From: a bacterium
GTDB lineage: Bacteria; Vulcanimicrobiota; Vulcanimicrobiia; Vulcanimicrobiales; SCRA01
NCBI GenBank assembly: GCA_028869325.1
Contig: JAGWST010000132.1
Location: forward strand, 1 to 8,738
Length of the DNA stretch: 8,738 bases
Direction of reading: 5' to 3'
A program made the position numbers and the translations under genes. Under the pieces are notes generated by a model. It saw only the letters and a list, made by a program, of their open reading frames with translations. It was not told the DNA's origin and ran no database searches. Shown piece after piece: positions 1-8,467 of the stretch. Numbering within the stretch: the stretch's first letter is position 1; each line of letters begins with the position of its first letter.

Positions 1-265
1 CGCCGGCGGTGCGCTGGTGAAGATCAACGAAGAGGTCTACCGGCGCTCGCAGATCCAGCAGATTCGCGCGAAGCTGGAGGAGCATCTGCGCGGGCGCGCG
101 GAGATGACCATGGCGGAGTTCCGCGACATCGTCGGCACGTCGCGCAAGTACAGTGTCCCACTGTTGGAGTGGTTCGACCTCAGTGGCGTGACGGTTCGCT
201 CGGGTGATATGAGGAGACTACGTGCTCATCCGTCGAGCTCGCGAACATCGGAGCCCTCGACGTAG
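1..265 (+). CDS. selB: Selenocysteine-specific elongation factor SelB, C-terminal end (5' truncated by window)
   Basis: SelB is the GTPase that carries selenocysteyl-tRNA(Sec) to the ribosome and recognises the mRNA SECIS hairpin through its C-terminal winged-helix domains. Only the last winged helix is here; the frame is open from the left edge (first full codon at base 2), so the gene begins outside. Seen directly: a helical stretch 'EVYRRSQIQQIRAKLEEHL', then 'FRDIVGTSRKYSVPLLEWFD', then 'GVTVRSGDMRRLR'. This is the usual SelB ending pattern (FRD..GTSRKY..PLLE.FD..GvT.R.GD.R.LR). The family match normally ends near this Arg; a 13-residue Ser/Thr-rich tail (AHPSSSRTSEPST) follows, lying over the 3' end of the convergent ABC ATPase gene with 40 bp of overlap. 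The GTG at 17 is an internal Val codon, not the start. Its presence shows that the organism decodes UGA as Sec, which supports the selenoprotein call at 2459-2884. Confidence 0.88.
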   Translation, partial: AGGALVKINEEVYRRSQIQQIRAKLEEHLRGRAEMTMAEFRDIVGTSRKYSVPLLEWFDLSGVTVRSGDMRRLRAHPSSSRTSEPST

Positions 266-1221
266 GCGTAGACTTCCATATCGATGTTGAGACCCTCGCG
301 GCGCCAGATCTCGAGCGGCATCTCGGCAGCGATGGCGACCCCACCCTCCAGCTGCAGGCGCATCGTCCCTCCGGACTGCGAGGCGTCGGCGATGCGCAGG
401 CGCCAGGAGTATGTACCGCTCCGCGGCTCGTGCGCGATGCGCACGCGCCATGGGTCGAAGGCGATCCGGCGCGGAGCACGGCCCTCCTGCGCGGGGAGCT
501 CCACGAGATTGCTGCCGATGAAGGTGGCCACGAAGTGCGCCGCGGGGTATGCGGCCAATGCCTGCGGCGTATCGGCCTGGACGATCCGGCCGGCGTCCAT
601 GATGGCGATACGATCCCCCAGGAAGCATGCGTCCTCGACGTCGTGGCTCACGACCAGCGTGGGAATGGTCAGCGAGCGCAGGATACGGCGCAGCTCGGCG
701 CGCACGTGCGCGCGGCTGGAGATGTCGAGGGCGGAGAGCGGCTCGTCCAACAATAGCGCTCGCGGCTCCGTCACCAGCGCGCGCGCCAGCGCGACGCGCT
801 GACGCTCGCCGCCCGAGAGCGTCGTCGTGCGCGCCCCGCGCAGGTGGGCGATGCGCAGGCGCTCGAGCATCGCGGTGACGCGCCTCGCGCGCTCCGCTGC
901 GGGAAACGAGAAGAGCCCATAGGCGACGTTGTCGGCCACGTTGAGGTGCGGAAAGAGCGCATAGCTCTGGAAGAGATAACCGATGCCGCGTCGCTCCGGC
1001 GGCAGCGAGAGGCCCGTGGCGCCGTCGTAGAGCGTCTCTCCGTCCAGGCGGATCGCGCCGCCGTCCAGATCGATCAGACCCGCCAGCCCGTTGAGCGTGG
1101 TCGTCTTGCCGCAGCCTGAACGTCCGGCCAGGACCACCACCTCGTTGCCGACGTCCAGCGCGGCGTCGATGGTGAAGTCGGGGAGTCGCTTGCGGAGGCG
1201 AAAGGAGAGCAGCGCGCCCAT
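226..1221 (-). CDS. modC: ModC-like molybdate/tungstate ABC transporter ATP-binding protein
   Basis: A 331-residue ABC ATPase that would power oxyanion import at the inner face of the membrane. All nucleotide-binding motifs are intact: Walker A GRSGCGKT (33-40), Q-loop Gln85 in 'YLFQSYALFPHLNV', signature LSGGERQR (135-142), Walker B ALLLDEP (155-161), D-loop SALD and switch His193 in 'VVSHD'. Residues from about 235 form a beta-rich TOBE-like extension. The short N-terminus without the usual aromatic A-loop lead-in, the 'RRGIGYLFQ..ALFPHLNV..NVAYGL' wording and the length favour ModC over sugar or spermidine ATPases; the substrate is inferred, since sulfate (CysA) and iron (FbpC) ATPases are close relatives. 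The start ATG (1221-1219) shares its A with the TGA of the upstream rnd gene, which implies translational coupling. No ModA or ModB partner is visible in the window. The 3' end overlaps selB on the other strand by 40 bp. Confidence 0.78.
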   Translation of the reverse strand: MGALLSFRLRKRLPDFTIDAALDVGNEVVVLAGRSGCGKTTTLNGLAGLIDLDGGAIRLDGETLYDGATGLSLPPERRGIGYLFQSYALFPHLNVADNVAYGLFSFPAAERARRVTAMLERLRIAHLRGARTTTLSGGERQRVALARALVTEPRALLLDEPLSALDISSRAHVRAELRRILRSLTIPTLVVSHDVEDACFLGDRIAIMDAGRIVQADTPQALAAYPAAHFVATFIGSNLVELPAQEGRAPRRIAFDPWRVRIAHEPRSGTYSWRLRIADASQSGGTMRLQLEGGVAIAAEMPLEIWRREGLNIDMEVYAYVEGSDVRELDG

Positions 1222-2393
1222 CAGGGGTCGATGGCCAAGCGCGGCTCACCCTGGGGGTAGCCGCGCACGGCGATGCGGCGCTCGCCGTTGAGCAACCGCC
1301 AGAGGGGCTCGCCGACGAGGTCGATGCGCCAATCGGAGAGATCGAGCACCCGCGTGAACTCGCCCAGTGTGCGCGGCAGGTCGCGCGCGACGCGCTCCAG
1401 CGCCGCGCGCGGCACCAGCAGCGAGGCCGGCAGCCGGTGCTCCGCGGCGATCGATGCCGTCACCACGCCCATCAGCGTCACCAGGGTCTCGCGCGAGGCG
1501 TCGAGGCCGCGTTGATGCTTGGGTGGAAGCGATGCCTCCGGCCAGGCCTCCCCAGCCGCCACCGCCTCCAGCATCCGCGGCCCCAGCGCCCTCTTCGTCT
1601 GCTCGTTGACGCGGCGCAGGGCGTTGAGGTCATCCACGCTCTTGGGGTGCAGCGCGGCGACCGCAACCAGCACGTCGTCCGAGGCAACGTAGCGCAGTGG
1701 GATGTCGCGCTCGCGCGCCACGCGCTCGCGCAGCTGGGCAAGCTCCGAGAGGATCGCCAGCTCGCGGCGGTTCAGGCGCTGGTTCCCCGAGACTTTGAGG
1801 TAGAGGCGGGCGCCCTCCACGCGATAGCGTGCGGGGTCGGTGAGCGGACCGCACTCCGCGTCGGCCCAGGACAATCTGCCCTGCTGGATGAGCAACTCGC
1901 GCACGCGATCGTGCAATGGGAGCAGGTGCACCACGTCGTCGACCAGGTACTCGACCTGTGCCGGTGAGAGCGGGCGTGCGCTCCAATCGCTCACCGTATG
2001 CGACTTACGCAGACGCACGTGCAGCAGCTCACGCACCAGATCGGCCAGTGAGATCGAGGCGCCGAAGCCGCAGAACGCCGCTGCGATCTGCGTGTCGAAG
2101 ACGCGCGCGGGCAGCTCGTCGAAGCGCTCGTGGAAGATGCGCAGATCGCTCGAGAGGGCATGGCCGATGAGCAGGACGTTGCGCAGCGCGTGTGCCAGCG
2201 GCCTCAGATCGGGGACGGCCAGCGGATCGACCAGCGCGACCCCGTCGTCGAAGGCGAGCTGGAGCAGCATCAGGCGCGGCACATATGAGTTCTCGCCGTG
2301 GAACTCCGTATCCAGGGCAACGCGCTCCGCGCGTTTCGCACGCTCGCAGAGTGCGGTCAAGGCGGAGTGGTCCGCAACGGTGGTCACTTCCAT
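1221..2393 (-). CDS. rnd: Ribonuclease D (DEDDy 3'-5' exoribonuclease)
   Basis: A 390-residue exonuclease expected to trim tRNA precursors and other stable RNAs from the 3' end using two metal ions. The N-terminal DEDDy domain is complete: Exo I 'ALDTEF' with Asp28 and Glu30, Exo II 'IGHALSSDLRIFH' with Asp83, and Exo III 'VEYLVDDVVHL' with Tyr149 and Asp153 in the Y-x3-D spacing. The 'LRKSHTVSDWSARPLSPAQVEY' stretch is characteristic of RNase D. An HRDC-like helical region follows at about 208-285 ('NRRELAILSELAQLRERVARERDIPL'), then a second, more diverged helical region to the C-terminus. E. coli RNase D is about 375 residues, so the length fits. The start at ATG 2393-2391 gives the usual short lead-in; no strong Shine-Dalgarno sequence is visible. 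It is the first gene of a two-gene unit with the ModC-like ATPase and is divergent from the phosphatase selenoprotein 65 bp away. Confidence 0.9.
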   Translation of the reverse strand: MEVTTVADHSALTALCERAKRAERVALDTEFHGENSYVPRLMLLQLAFDDGVALVDPLAVPDLRPLAHALRNVLLIGHALSSDLRIFHERFDELPARVFDTQIAAAFCGFGASISLADLVRELLHVRLRKSHTVSDWSARPLSPAQVEYLVDDVVHLLPLHDRVRELLIQQGRLSWADAECGPLTDPARYRVEGARLYLKVSGNQRLNRRELAILSELAQLRERVARERDIPLRYVASDDVLVAVAALHPKSVDDLNALRRVNEQTKRALGPRMLEAVAAGEAWPEASLPPKHQRGLDASRETLVTLMGVVTASIAAEHRLPASLLVPRAALERVARDLPRTLGEFTRVLDLSDWRIDLVGEPLWRLLNGERRIAVRGYPQGEPRLAIDP

Positions 2394-2458: not shown

Positions 2459-2884
2459 ATGAAGAACGAGGGGAGAATCGGTCGCTTCGTCGTGGCGGGG
2501 CAGCCGACCGACGAGGAGATCCGGGCGCTCGGCGAGCGCGGCTTCGGCATGGTCGTGAACGTCCGGCTCGATACGGAGCTGGAGGAGCCCGAGGAGCCCA
2601 AGGTCCGTGCCGCGGGCTTGGCGTACGCGTCGGTGCCGTACACGCACCAGACGCTGACGCGCGAGCACGTTCAGCGCGTGCGCGAGGCGGCCGAGGCCGC
2701 CGTGGGGAGCGAGGTCTTGCTCCACTGAGCGGGCGGGACGCGGGCCGCGGTCGCGGCCGCCATCATCGAGGCCGAGCGTGACGGCAGCGGAGCGCGCGGC
2801 GCGATCGCGCGCTTGCGCGAGGCCGACTACGACGTGGGCGGTACGCCGTACGAGCGTTTCATCGAGCGCTACTTCGTAACCTAG
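2459..2884 (+). CDS. Predicted selenoprotein: DUF442-type protein phosphatase with selenocysteine at the catalytic position
   Basis: A 141-residue protein read through an in-frame TGA (2726-2728) at residue 90. Seen directly: the N-terminal half 'GRFVVAGQPTDEEIRALGERGF' followed by 'MVVNVRLD' and 'AAGLAYASVPY' matches the opening of the DUF442 / beta-lactamase-hydrolase-like phosphatase fold (SGQPT.e.l..l...GF..VinlR...E). The strand 'GSEVLLH' then runs into TGA and AGGTRAA, giving HUAGGTR where family members have HC-x-x-G-x-R, with Cys as the phosphate-attacking nucleophile and Arg binding phosphate. After the TGA the frame continues plausibly (AAVAAAIIEAERDG, then 'GGTPYERFIERYF') to TAG 2882-2884. 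Stopping at TGA would remove the active-site loop and the last third of the domain. A hairpin suited to SECIS function follows the TGA and selB lies in the same window. Start ATG 2459 is the only in-frame start near the domain; its RBS is weak. A TGC-to-TGA sequencing error or a decayed gene is the main alternative. The substrate is unknown. Confidence 0.82.
2740..2760 (+). promoter_or_regulatory. Candidate bacterial SECIS hairpin downstream of the Sec TGA
   Basis: GGCCGC (2743-2748) pairs perfectly with GCGGCC (2753-2758) around a four-base loop GGTC (2749-2752). Below the stem, C2741-G2759 and G2740-C2760 can pair if G2742 is bulged. The loop G and T lie about 21-23 nt after the TGA, within the spacing usual for bacterial SECIS elements. 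From memory, the E. coli fdhF SECIS also has a GGUC loop at nearly the same distance and a bulged base on its 5' side. The hairpin lies inside the coding frame, as bacterial SECIS elements must. SelB winged-helix binding is inferred. GC-rich DNA makes chance hairpins common, which tempers confidence. Confidence 0.65.
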
Positions 2885-4731: not shown

Positions 4732-6078
4732 ATGAAGCAGTTCGACCTCATTGTCATCGGCACGGGTAGTGCAGGCGTCACGACGGCATTCGCTTGCCGG
4801 GAGGCCGGCTGGAGCGTCGCGCTCATCGATTCGCGCCCCTTCGGCGGGACGTGCGCCCTTCGGGGCTGTGATCCGAAGAAGGTGCTGGTGGGCCTTGCGG
4901 AGCTGGCCGACTGGAGCCGGCGAATGCACCGCAAAGGCATCACCAACGAGATTCATGTCGACTGGCCGGCGTTGATGCGCTTCAAGCGATCGTTCACCGA
5001 GCCCGTGCCGGCCAAACGTGAACGATCGTTTGCCGAGGCCGGCATCGCAGCGTTCCACGGCCGCGCGCGGTTCACGGATCGCACGACCGTGCAAGTCGGC
5101 GCGGAGAGTCTCGCCGCGCGCTTCGTGGTCATCGCCAATGGCGCCAAGCCGATGGATCTTGGAATTCCCGGCCAGGAATACCTTACGACGAGCGAAGGCT
5201 TTCTCGACCTCGATACCCTTCCCGACCGCATCGTCTTCGTGGGCGGAGGCTACATCTCGTTCGAGTTCGCCCACGTCGCCGCACGCATCGGCGCGCACGT
5301 TCAGATCCTCCACCGCGGGCAGCGCCCACTGGGGGGCTTCGATCCCGATCTCGTCGAGCAGTTGACAAGGGCAAGCCGAGACCTTGGAATCGATATTCAC
5401 CTCAACACGGAAGTCCTCGCCATCGAGAAGCAGAACGGACAGCTCGTCATTCGCGCAAAGCAATCCGATACCGAAGAGCGCTTCGCGGCCGATCTCGTCG
5501 TGCACGGTGCGGGTCGCGTCTCGGAGATCGACGACCTGCGTCTCGACGTCGCGTGCGTCGCACGCACCAAGCGAGGGGTCGCGGTCAATGAGTATCTCCA
5601 GAGCACGACCAACTCATCGGTCTATGCGGCCGGTGACGCGGCCGCCGGCCCCGGCCTCCCGTTGACACCAGTGGCCGCTACGGAGGGAGAGATTGTCGCC
5701 GAGAATCTGCTCCATGGCAATCGTCGAACAGCCAATTTCAATGGGCTGGCGAGCATCGTCTACACAGTACCGGCACTCGCCGCCGTCGGGCTGGGCGAGG
5801 CCGGGGCACGGGAGCGCGGCCTGCGATTTCACGTCCGCGCAGGCGACACGTCGACGTGGTATTCTCCGCGACGTCTGGGGGTCGAGCACTCCGGCTACAA
5901 GGTGCTGATCGACGAACGGGAAGGCCTCATACTCGGCGCCCACATTCTCGGTCCGCATGCCGAGGAGCTGGCCAACCTCTTCTCCCTGGCGATCCACCGT
6001 GGCATTCCCGCGAAGGACCTCGGAAATGCGCCGTACGCCTATCCGACCGGGGCATCAGACATCGAATACATGGTGTAA
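4732..6078 (+). CDS. FAD/NAD(P)-dependent class I disulfide oxidoreductase (glutathione reductase / MerA-like family)
   Basis: A 448-residue cytoplasmic flavoprotein of the dihydrolipoamide dehydrogenase / glutathione reductase family. FAD-binding GTGSAG is at residues 10-15, and the redox pair Cys41 and Cys46 sits in 'FGGTCALRGCDPKK', the classic GGTCxxxGCxPxK active site. The NAD(P)-binding motif 'VFVGGGYISFEFA' is at about 169-180, the second FAD motif 'SVYAAGD' at 296-302, and a dimerisation domain runs from about 340 to the end. The C-terminus reads 'YAYPTGASDIEYMV' where glutathione reductase has HPTxxE, so the His that serves as acid/base is Tyr437 and its Glu partner is Ser442. The enzyme is therefore probably not a standard glutathione or dihydrolipoamide reductase; the electron acceptor is unknown. 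The start has a fair Shine-Dalgarno sequence (AGAGGG). The next gene begins 88 bp downstream. Codon use looks somewhat less G/C-biased than in the glycosyltransferase. Confidence 0.87.
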   Translation: MKQFDLIVIGTGSAGVTTAFACREAGWSVALIDSRPFGGTCALRGCDPKKVLVGLAELADWSRRMHRKGITNEIHVDWPALMRFKRSFTEPVPAKRERSFAEAGIAAFHGRARFTDRTTVQVGAESLAARFVVIANGAKPMDLGIPGQEYLTTSEGFLDLDTLPDRIVFVGGGYISFEFAHVAARIGAHVQILHRGQRPLGGFDPDLVEQLTRASRDLGIDIHLNTEVLAIEKQNGQLVIRAKQSDTEERFAADLVVHGAGRVSEIDDLRLDVACVARTKRGVAVNEYLQSTTNSSVYAAGDAAAGPGLPLTPVAATEGEIVAENLLHGNRRTANFNGLASIVYTVPALAAVGLGEAGARERGLRFHVRAGDTSTWYSPRRLGVEHSGYKVLIDEREGLILGAHILGPHAEELANLFSLAIHRGIPAKDLGNAPYAYPTGASDIEYMV

Positions 6079-6889: not shown

Positions 6890-8467
6890 ATGCGTGAGCT
6901 TCCCGTACACGACTACACGATTCTCAAGAGCGTGCGTGCGGTATGCCCGAAGTGCTTCGCGGGTAACGACGCGTTCGACCCTGAGTATCCGACGGACATC
7001 TGTGACGGTCACCTAGTCGAACGTGCCGGTCGCATATATCTGCGGCGTTTCTGTCGCCGGGGTCACGGAGACGTCTGGTCCCTCTACGAAGAGTCGGCCG
7101 ATCTCTGGCGCTATCTGCAGCAGTGGCGCGTCCCGACCAAGGTCGTCAATCCCGACACCTCGGAGATCTTTCCCGTGCCGATGGGGTACGAACATGGCCT
7201 CGGTCCGGCGCATCTGCAACACTCCTGTATCTATCTGCTGGACATCACCTCCCAATGCAACCTTTCGTGCCCGGCATGTTTCGCGCAATCGAGTCCTGAG
7301 GCTTCGCTCTACCTCCCATTCGATCAGATCGTGCGAGCCGTGGAGACCGCCATCGAGCGCGAGAACGGGCGCTTGGACATCGTCATGCTGAGCGGTGGCG
7401 AACCGACGGTTCATCCGCAACTACGGGAGATCGTCGAGCGGCTCGCGACCTTGCCGGTCACACGGGTGGTCATCAATACCAACGGCATCCGCCTGGCGGC
7501 CGACGATGGGTTCCTCGAATTCGTGGCATCGCATCGAGATCGCGTCGAAATCTACCTGCAGTACGACGGACAGCGCGCCAGCACGCACGAGTATCTCCGC
7601 GGGAGCGACTTGCGCCAGACGAAGAGCCGTGTGGTCGAACGCCTCTCGACTGCGAGGATCTTCACGACGCTGGCGATGACCGTCGCCAAGCACAACGCCG
7701 ATCAGATCGGCGAGGTCCTCGACACGGCATTCGCGACGCCATACATCGGCGGCGTCATGTTTCAGCCGATCTTCGGGTCGGGACGCGCACCAAACATCGA
7801 TCCAATGGATCGTGTCACGACGACCGGCGTGCTTGCGCGCATCGAAGCGCAATCCCGCAACGGCGTCCGCGCGCGCGATTTGATCGCACTACCCTGCAGC
7901 CATCCCGATTGCTGCTCCATTGGCTACTTCATCAGAGATCGCCGAGGCAGCTTTCGGTCACTGGCCTCCGTGCTCGGCGAGCAGGTGCTCCAGCAGAACT
8001 TGAGCCTCGTCGGAAACACCATCGTGTTTGGCGAAGCTGTGGACGTCGTGAAAGACGCTTTGACCAAAGTGATGTCCGAAACGATGACGATGTCGCGCCC
8101 GGAGCTCATCGGCCACCTACGCGCGCTCTGCTCACAGTGCGATCTCGGCCTGACCGAGTTATTCCGCGCGGCGTTCGCCGGCGGAACCGGATCGTTGCCA
8201 AGGTTCACGGCAGAGCGCGTCAAGCGAGTCACAATTAAGCATTTCATGGACGCGGACATGCTGATCGCCGAGCGGCTCGAGCAATGTTGCGTGCACGTCG
8301 CCGGGGCAGGAAACGATCCCGTGCGCATGCCGTTCTGCGCAGCCCGGCTCTTTCCGAAGGTTCGCGCACGGGCAATGGAAGGCATGATGGCCCGCACCGC
8401 CGTACGCGCGCACGTTCAGGATCGCGCCGCGGCATCGGCGATCACGACTTCGGAGCAGAGCCCGTAG
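6890..8467 (+). CDS. Cysteine-rich radical SAM enzyme resembling tetraether / membrane-spanning lipid synthase (Tes/Mss)
   Basis: A 525-residue radical SAM enzyme. The cluster motif is Cys123-x3-Cys127-x2-Cys130 in 'ITSQCNLSCPACFA', followed by the SAM-binding 'MLSGGEPTVHPQL' (166-178) and 'VVINTNGIRLA'. Extra cysteines form groups: an N-terminal CPKC (19, 22) with Cys38 and Cys55 ('RRFCRRGHGDVW', a rubredoxin-like zone), 'LPCSHPDCCS' (336, 341, 342), 'LCSQC' (414, 417), and 'QCCVHVAG' with 'MPFCAARLF' (466, 467, 483). This order, including the FMDA..ERL..CCVH..PFC ending, recalls the archaeal MJ0619/Tes family, which joins lipid tails by C-C bonds, and its bacterial relatives proposed to make membrane-spanning lipids. 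That recognition is from memory of motifs; the substrate is inferred. ATG 6890 is chosen because it places the protein just ahead of the CPKC zone; an upstream ATG (6877) is out of frame. The 3' end overlaps the convergent methyltransferase gene by 52 bp. Confidence 0.8.
   Translation: MRELPVHDYTILKSVRAVCPKCFAGNDAFDPEYPTDICDGHLVERAGRIYLRRFCRRGHGDVWSLYEESADLWRYLQQWRVPTKVVNPDTSEIFPVPMGYEHGLGPAHLQHSCIYLLDITSQCNLSCPACFAQSSPEASLYLPFDQIVRAVETAIERENGRLDIVMLSGGEPTVHPQLREIVERLATLPVTRVVINTNGIRLAADDGFLEFVASHRDRVEIYLQYDGQRASTHEYLRGSDLRQTKSRVVERLSTARIFTTLAMTVAKHNADQIGEVLDTAFATPYIGGVMFQPIFGSGRAPNIDPMDRVTTTGVLARIEAQSRNGVRARDLIALPCSHPDCCSIGYFIRDRRGSFRSLASVLGEQVLQQNLSLVGNTIVFGEAVDVVKDALTKVMSETMTMSRPELIGHLRALCSQCDLGLTELFRAAFAGGTGSLPRFTAERVKRVTIKHFMDADMLIAERLEQCCVHVAGAGNDPVRMPFCAARLFPKVRARAMEGMMARTAVRAHVQDRAAASAITTSEQSP

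Follow-up and report, generated by a model that had tools for sequence, protein, structure and literature searches.

A predicted selenocysteine-containing DUF442 protein of Eremiobacterota-like bacteria, probably a selenol-based sulfurtransferase

The closest described relatives of the protein discussed here are the DUF442 domains of Blh and of the C. pinatubonensis SQR (TIGR01244, NF040641): Both are PF04273-type domains in which the nucleophile and an arginine delimit a six-residue loop, CRTGTR in SQR. As far as the accessible portions of the two reports go, the DUF442 domain of Blh alone transfers sulfur from thiosulfate to cyanide (PMC5823870), a DUF442 domain has a kcat/Km of 3.04 x 10^3 per M per s with these two substrates, the last arginine of the CRTGTR loop of the DUF442 sulfurtransferase is critical, and rhodanese-type loops have six residues with the nucleophile in the first and mostly Arg, Thr or Ser in the last position (PMC8533005). 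Here, we describe a gene of this family in which an in-frame TGA occupies the codon of the nucleophile. It is located in a stretch of 8,738 nucleotides (the window), which corresponds to contig C23 of G000, a draft genome that is 82% complete. Judged from the sequence, the gene almost certainly encodes a selenoprotein with selenocysteine (Sec) at position 90 (U90). The joint claim that this Sec90-containing DUF442 protein works as a selenol-based sulfurtransferase is the reading that we favor, with distinctly less assurance. The relevant features are the following:

2459..2884, forward strand: Sec-type DUF442 gene, 141 codons including U90, stop codon TAG (translation, PF04273 match, copies in relatives, AlphaFold)
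2726..2728, forward strand: in-frame TGA, the predicted Sec90 codon, at the invariant catalytic Cys column (TGA in 16, TGT or TGC in 5 of 21 full-length copies)
2743..2758, forward strand: predicted bacterial selenocysteine insertion sequence (SECIS) hairpin with a 6-bp stem and 20 nt from UGA to loop (RNAalifold, pair counts, synonymous-codon null, constrained folding)
2749..2752, forward strand: GGUC apical loop, present without exception in the 16 Sec genes and absent from 5 of 5 Cys genes

Unlike the DUF442 domains of Blh and SQR, the U90 protein has a predicted Sec and stands alone with its 141 residues, without a dioxygenase or SQR part. It is similar to forms 1-5 of the rhodanese-like selenoproteins (mostly PF00581), which according to the accessible part of a 2026 inventory of bacterial selenoproteins also carry Sec in a predicted rhodanese-type sulfurtransferase (PMC13188914); however, it has no PF00581 match at E <= 0.1. 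The arsenate reductase selenoproteins (TIGR00014, NF041106) listed in the same source are likewise small Sec enzymes, of the detoxification type, but they are different families and set apart by their domain ids. TpbA, VHR and other dual-specificity phosphatases have the overall protein tyrosine phosphatase (PTP) fold in common with the U90 protein, but possess their own CX5R loop, which is one residue longer in the alignment with TpbA. Table 1 of the inventory, with 119 families and subfamilies, does not name a Sec-type DUF442 family: Among its names and domain ids, PF04273, TIGR01244 and phosphatase entries are all absent. The same comparison yielded neither a phosphatase selenoprotein nor one of the DUF442 or PF04273 type in the accessible text of a 2022 review (PMC9312934) and of the deep-Sep report (PMC12013277). 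Literature searches, which covered neither subscription papers nor NCBI protein records, found, among the papers listed, no selenoprotein of the DUF442/PF04273/Blh or phosphatase type and no paper on selenoproteins in Eremiobacterota. Within these sources, the suggestion of the original prediction that the family may be new has thus held up.

The frame from 2459 to 2884 translates as MKNEGR...VLLH-U90-AGGTRAAV...GGTPYERFIERYFVT, followed by the stop codon; it contains exactly one internal TGA, and 51 more codons lie between this TGA and the TAG. With Cys substituted for Sec, the protein scores 40.8 bits against PF04273 of Pfam (cut-off 26.1 bits) over residues 10-105, and this match spans the TGA and continues downstream of it. 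Moreover, the AlphaFold model of the full 141 residues has a mean predicted local distance difference test score (pLDDT) of 97.2, and the protein has the fold of PF04273 (BLH_phosphatase / DUF442). The comparison of every pair of Sec genes over codons +1 to +45 after the TGA revealed 1527, 1543 and 2897 differences at codon positions 1, 2 and 3, respectively, i. e. change biased toward the third position. The assignment of the TGA to the nucleophile position of a DUF442 protein, made in the original prediction together with the proposal that coding sense extends beyond it, therefore stands: The column is that of the invariant active-site Cys of PF04273.

The same TGA recurs in related genomes. 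Among 103 genomes of the order, 22 gave a match and 21 possess a full-length copy (the counts below omit a weak partial match in G034 and a partial second copy in G098). Exactly one TGA is present in 16 of these copies, all from Eremiobacterota-like bacteria, and none in the other five (G030, G032, G050, G066, G078). The TGA coincides in each of the 16 with the codon for the invariant active-site Cys, for which the five Cys-type genes use TGT or TGC. Thus, the family exhibits what is expected of a bacterial selenoprotein, a TGA in the place of a conserved Cys, and homologues of either type. An error in a single genome can be rejected because 16 genomes have the same TGA, and this rules out a sequencing error or pseudogene. 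The partial second copy in G098 (L038, G098:C164) contains one TGA and one TAG and is perhaps a decayed paralogue. A global recoding of TGA, already considered unlikely in the original prediction, remains unlikely and was rejected since TGA also serves as a gene terminator: It ends modC and rnd in the window and, among the 15 genes of the Sec-type family that do not run off their contig, four.

In the phylum as a whole, 42 of 149 genomes matched, and among the matches listed for the 18 genomes outside the order none has an internal stop. A scan of the whole collection gave zero matches with a single protein as the query and 20 loci with an alignment. In addition, 130 database proteins were retrieved (one contributing search listed 120 of 284 matches). 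Among the matches listed, the Cys motif is intact in 81 of the 130 proteins; the remaining 49, to which the protein of the window belongs, terminate at the His that precedes the active site. For the other 48 we infer from the protein sequences that a TGA was taken as the stop; one of them, P0129, corresponds to G089 in the tree. Many public entries would then need correcting, because gene prediction cuts them at the active site. A quick tree with 108 rows, 12 of whose Sec rows come from the 49 shortened entries and were scored from the protein alone, requires at least eight changes between Sec and Cys; only two of these are forced by well-supported branches, and gain and loss of Sec are thus both compatible with the tree.

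The 16 Sec genes share a hairpin downstream of the TGA. For the 60 nt beginning at the TGA, RNAalifold predicts a single hairpin in which positions 18-23 pair with positions 28-33 around the loop GGUC. The SECIS of Escherichia coli fdhF has a loop of this GGUC type. Overall, 94 of 96 pair cells are formed (all six pairs in 14 genes, five in two), compensatory two-sided changes occur in four of the six pairs, which was equally high in one of 500 shuffles of these related sequences, and the covariation score was reached in none of 500; shifted versions of the hairpin are only 23-75% paired. Since the encoded Ala-Ala-Val-Ala-Ala might itself seem palindromic, we also used a synonymous-codon null: In 10,000 redraws, the mean number of pairs was 76.9 (standard deviation 2.8) as compared to 94 in the genes and the GGTC loop was present 4.1 times (standard deviation 1.7) as compared to 16 of 16, and neither value was reached once. 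The five Cys genes were unremarkable in this test, and none of them has the GGTC loop. The UGA-proximal 9 or 12 nt would be covered by the ribosome. If they are held unpaired, the mean pair probability of the hairpin is 0.66-1.00 in all 16 Sec genes; in the Cys genes it is 0.83 for G066 and at most 0.06 for the other four. The Cys-type gene of G066 (L030) keeps the SECIS-like stem with an altered loop; this stem may be a relic, and a recent switch from Sec to Cys is possible. The accessible description of the bacterial SECIS model gives a loop of 3-9 nt with a G within the first two positions, a stem of 4-16 bp and a spacing of 16-37 nt (PMC13188914); the 4-nt loop GGUC, the 6 bp and the 20 nt found here agree with these rules, the folding-energy limit being left out of the comparison. 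An Rfam scan of the window gave zero matches, and with a covariance model of the hairpin region a single place, the U90 gene, was hit in each of the four genomes of the genus. The hairpins would provide a clean SECIS set for the phylum Eremiobacterota.

The machinery for Sec insertion, the absence of which would have counted against the original prediction, is present in G000: We found tRNA-Sec with the anticodon TCA (71.7 bits), selA (560.6 bits), selD (383.2 bits) and a split selB, with 272.4 bits on contig C476 behind selA and the tail at the start of the window. The SelB that had been noticed in the window is thus only the C-terminal winged-helix piece (PF09107). selD has its own in-frame TGA (SSCAG-U-ASK; L125 around 1533, G000:C78). 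In the predicted fold for G000, two hairpins follow this TGA, and in the order-mate G059 the second one has a GGUCU loop. A plausible Sec site is present in 10 of 16 selD loci and absent from four; the selD matches in G007 and G046 and the second one in G058 resemble other frames. selA occurs in 86 of the 103 genomes of the order, including all 16 Sec-type and four of the five Cys-type genomes; 16 of 16 would have a chance probability of 0.043 for independent genomes, which genomes of one order are not. Twelve of the 16 Sec-type and two of the five Cys-type genomes have a tRNA-Sec that scores near 70 bits or higher; Cys-type G032 lies just above the cut-off of 47, and Cys-type G030 and G050 have no tRNA-Sec over this cut-off.

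What could the Sec protein do? The U90 protein has just two matches in NCBIfam, the Blh sulfur transferase/dioxygenase and the TIGR01244 sulfur transferase. The Blh model NF040641 describes a DUF442 domain fused to an ETHE1-like dioxygenase, and the 141-residue protein reaches 49.3 of the 625 bits set as its cut-off. The columns of Cys/Sec90 and Arg95 are invariant in all 54 aligned members. UAGGTR has the form of a rhodanese-type loop, and it shares the length, the Gly-Thr-Arg end and the position with CRTGTR of the DUF442 sulfurtransferase as far as this is described in the accessible text (PMC8533005). We suggest the following sequence of events: (i) SelB would bind the hairpin and tRNA-Sec would decode the UGA at codon 90. 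(ii) Sec90, the first residue of the six-residue loop U-A-G-G-T-R, would accept sulfane sulfur as Sec-Se-SH; thiosulfate or a thiol persulfide, for example, could serve as the donor, which Arg95 would activate in the manner of the loop-end Arg of a Cys DUF442 domain. (iii) The sulfur of Sec-Se-SH would then be passed to an acceptor. Several Cys-type relatives may perform the same sulfur transfer, as suggested by their homology. Sec would confer a lower pKa than Cys and be more easily repaired after oxidation. Our proposal would put Sec into a sulfur-transfer site on a tyrosine phosphatase fold, and the close Cys and Sec versions within one order would make up a natural experiment on the benefit of selenium in persulfide chemistry. 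A bolder version, that the Sec nucleophile on this fold carries both sulfur and selenium (Sec-Se-SH / Sec-Se-SeH) and feeds persulfide or selenide pools, beside selA-selB in one genus, seems to us rather unlikely.

Several observations weigh against the proposed selenol-based sulfurtransferase. With respect to the hairpin, the sequences in the shuffle and synonymous-codon tests are kin and not independent, the number of further pair types is six as compared to a shuffled mean of 6.4 (466 of 500 shuffles are as high), and the free 45-nt strand folds otherwise in seven of the 16 Sec genes (including the one of the window), with a hairpin pair probability of at most 0.22; the hairpin is dominant in all 16 only with the first 9-12 nt held unpaired. 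The hairpins after the selD TGA in the genus differ. tRNA-Sec is borderline in the Sec-type genomes G089 (50.7) and G102 (47.8), and none over the cut-off of 47 was found in Sec-type G002 and G101. With respect to sulfur transfer, the U90 protein scores 47.5 bits against TIGR01244, below the cut-off of 85.85 bits, and the subfamily label is therefore a resemblance only. The window genes and 10 annotated neighbour proteins do not include an evident participant in sulfide or persulfide metabolism. Finally, the closest solved structures bear the annotation of putative DUF442 phosphatases, and the DUF442-type relative NMA1982 has weak phosphatase activity.

Since NMA1982 (2F46), a C(X)4R phosphatase of weak activity, has the loop CRTGTR, we have kept the idea of the original prediction that Sec90 acts as nucleophile in a PTP-type phosphatase, perhaps switched off by oxidation, as a rival, albeit an unlikely one. 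The family has the motif [HY]C-X4-R in all 54 rows of the alignment (with Sec written as C), one residue less than the CX5R of PTPs. Moreover, NMA1982 has a Cys and uses Asp71 as the general acid, even though the D71A exchange halves the activity without abolishing it, whereas this column is Thr in 21 and Ser in three of 24 members and Asp in none of the 54 rows. The kcat/Km of NMA1982 as a phosphatase is 1.26 per M per s, as compared to the 3.04 x 10^3 per M per s given above for the DUF442 sulfurtransferase domain; this is a rough comparison since proteins and substrates differ. Thus, of the designation as a phosphatase-like selenoprotein, Sec at the catalytic position of DUF442/PF04273 is retained, but the CX4R loop and the Thr or Ser at the D71 column speak against a phosphatase as the first choice.

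A selenol redox enzyme on the same fold, i. e. a peroxidase, reductase or deglutathionylase, is similarly improbable. According to the accessible part of the 2026 inventory, most uncharacterized bacterial selenoproteins are likely redox proteins (PMC13188914). However, a UxxC or CxxU motif and a second conserved Cys are both absent from the 54-row family alignment, and the resolving thiol would therefore have to come from outside the protein. The invariant Arg at the end of the loop would also seem superfluous for a simple redox function.

Even less probable than the phosphatase and the redox enzyme is that the protein carries selenium to SelD or SelA. This reading stems from the location of the gene, which in its genus lies within the sel locus: G001, G002 and G003 have the order selA-selB-modC-rnd-U90 gene on a single contig, with the U90 gene 4 kb behind selA in the genus-mates, and in G001 and G003 tRNA-Sec is found about 6-7 kb beyond this run. 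The gene order in G000 is likely the same, with selA and most of selB on another contig. Yet, of the 86 genomes of the order with selA, 66 yielded no full-length copy; G030, which lacks both selA and a selD over the cut-off, nevertheless has a Cys copy; and in the 16 draft genomes from the order, but not the genus, that contain both selA and the U90-family gene, the two are on separate contigs. The copy-less selA genomes and G030 lead us to reject a general role as selenium donor for SelD. Finally, that the TGA is a true stop (by nonsense mutation, sequencing error or regulated termination) with a relic downstream is hardly credible: Gene prediction does end there in the 49 of 130 proteins among the matches listed, but the codon is always TGA in the 16 genomes, the downstream change is biased toward the third position, the full-length fold is predicted with confidence, and the GGUC hairpin loop occurs in the TGA genes but is missing from the Cys genes.

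Upstream of the U90 gene, the window contains three further features:

2..223, forward strand: C-terminal piece of selB (PF09107, 68.5 bits; TIGR00475 at C23:26-223, 30.9 bits; 77-81% identity to the SelB tails of G001-G003)
226..1221, reverse strand: ABC (ATP-binding cassette) transporter ATPase, modC-like (TIGR02142, 223.9 bits, below the cut-off; PhnT2 slightly higher; 64-68% identity in L068-L070 by tblastn)
1221..2393, reverse strand: rnd, ribonuclease D (TIGR01388, 273.8 bits, below the cut-off of 298.95; 72-75% identity in L068-L070 by tblastn)

The rnd gene and the gene of the modC-like ATPase are conserved neighbours in the genus and probably do not contribute to the function of the U90 protein. 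Outside the genus, the recurrent neighbours, each in three to five genomes, are peptidase M23, 3-hydroxyacyl-CoA dehydrogenase, peptidase M3, parts of a branched-chain amino-acid ABC transporter and one protein without a Pfam match; the 10 annotated neighbour proteins do not suggest a pathway. Two further frames of the window are worth mentioning. The first, at 4732-6078 on the forward strand, encodes a pyridine nucleotide-disulfide oxidoreductase with a C-x4-C motif that remains under the cut-off for all 25 NCBIfam models shown. The second, at 6890-8467 on the forward strand and without an internal TGA, encodes a radical SAM (S-adenosylmethionine) protein, the nearest NCBIfam models being the TrsS '(seleno)protein' with 209.5 bits (cut-off 490) and the tetraether lipid synthase Tes with 171.8 bits.
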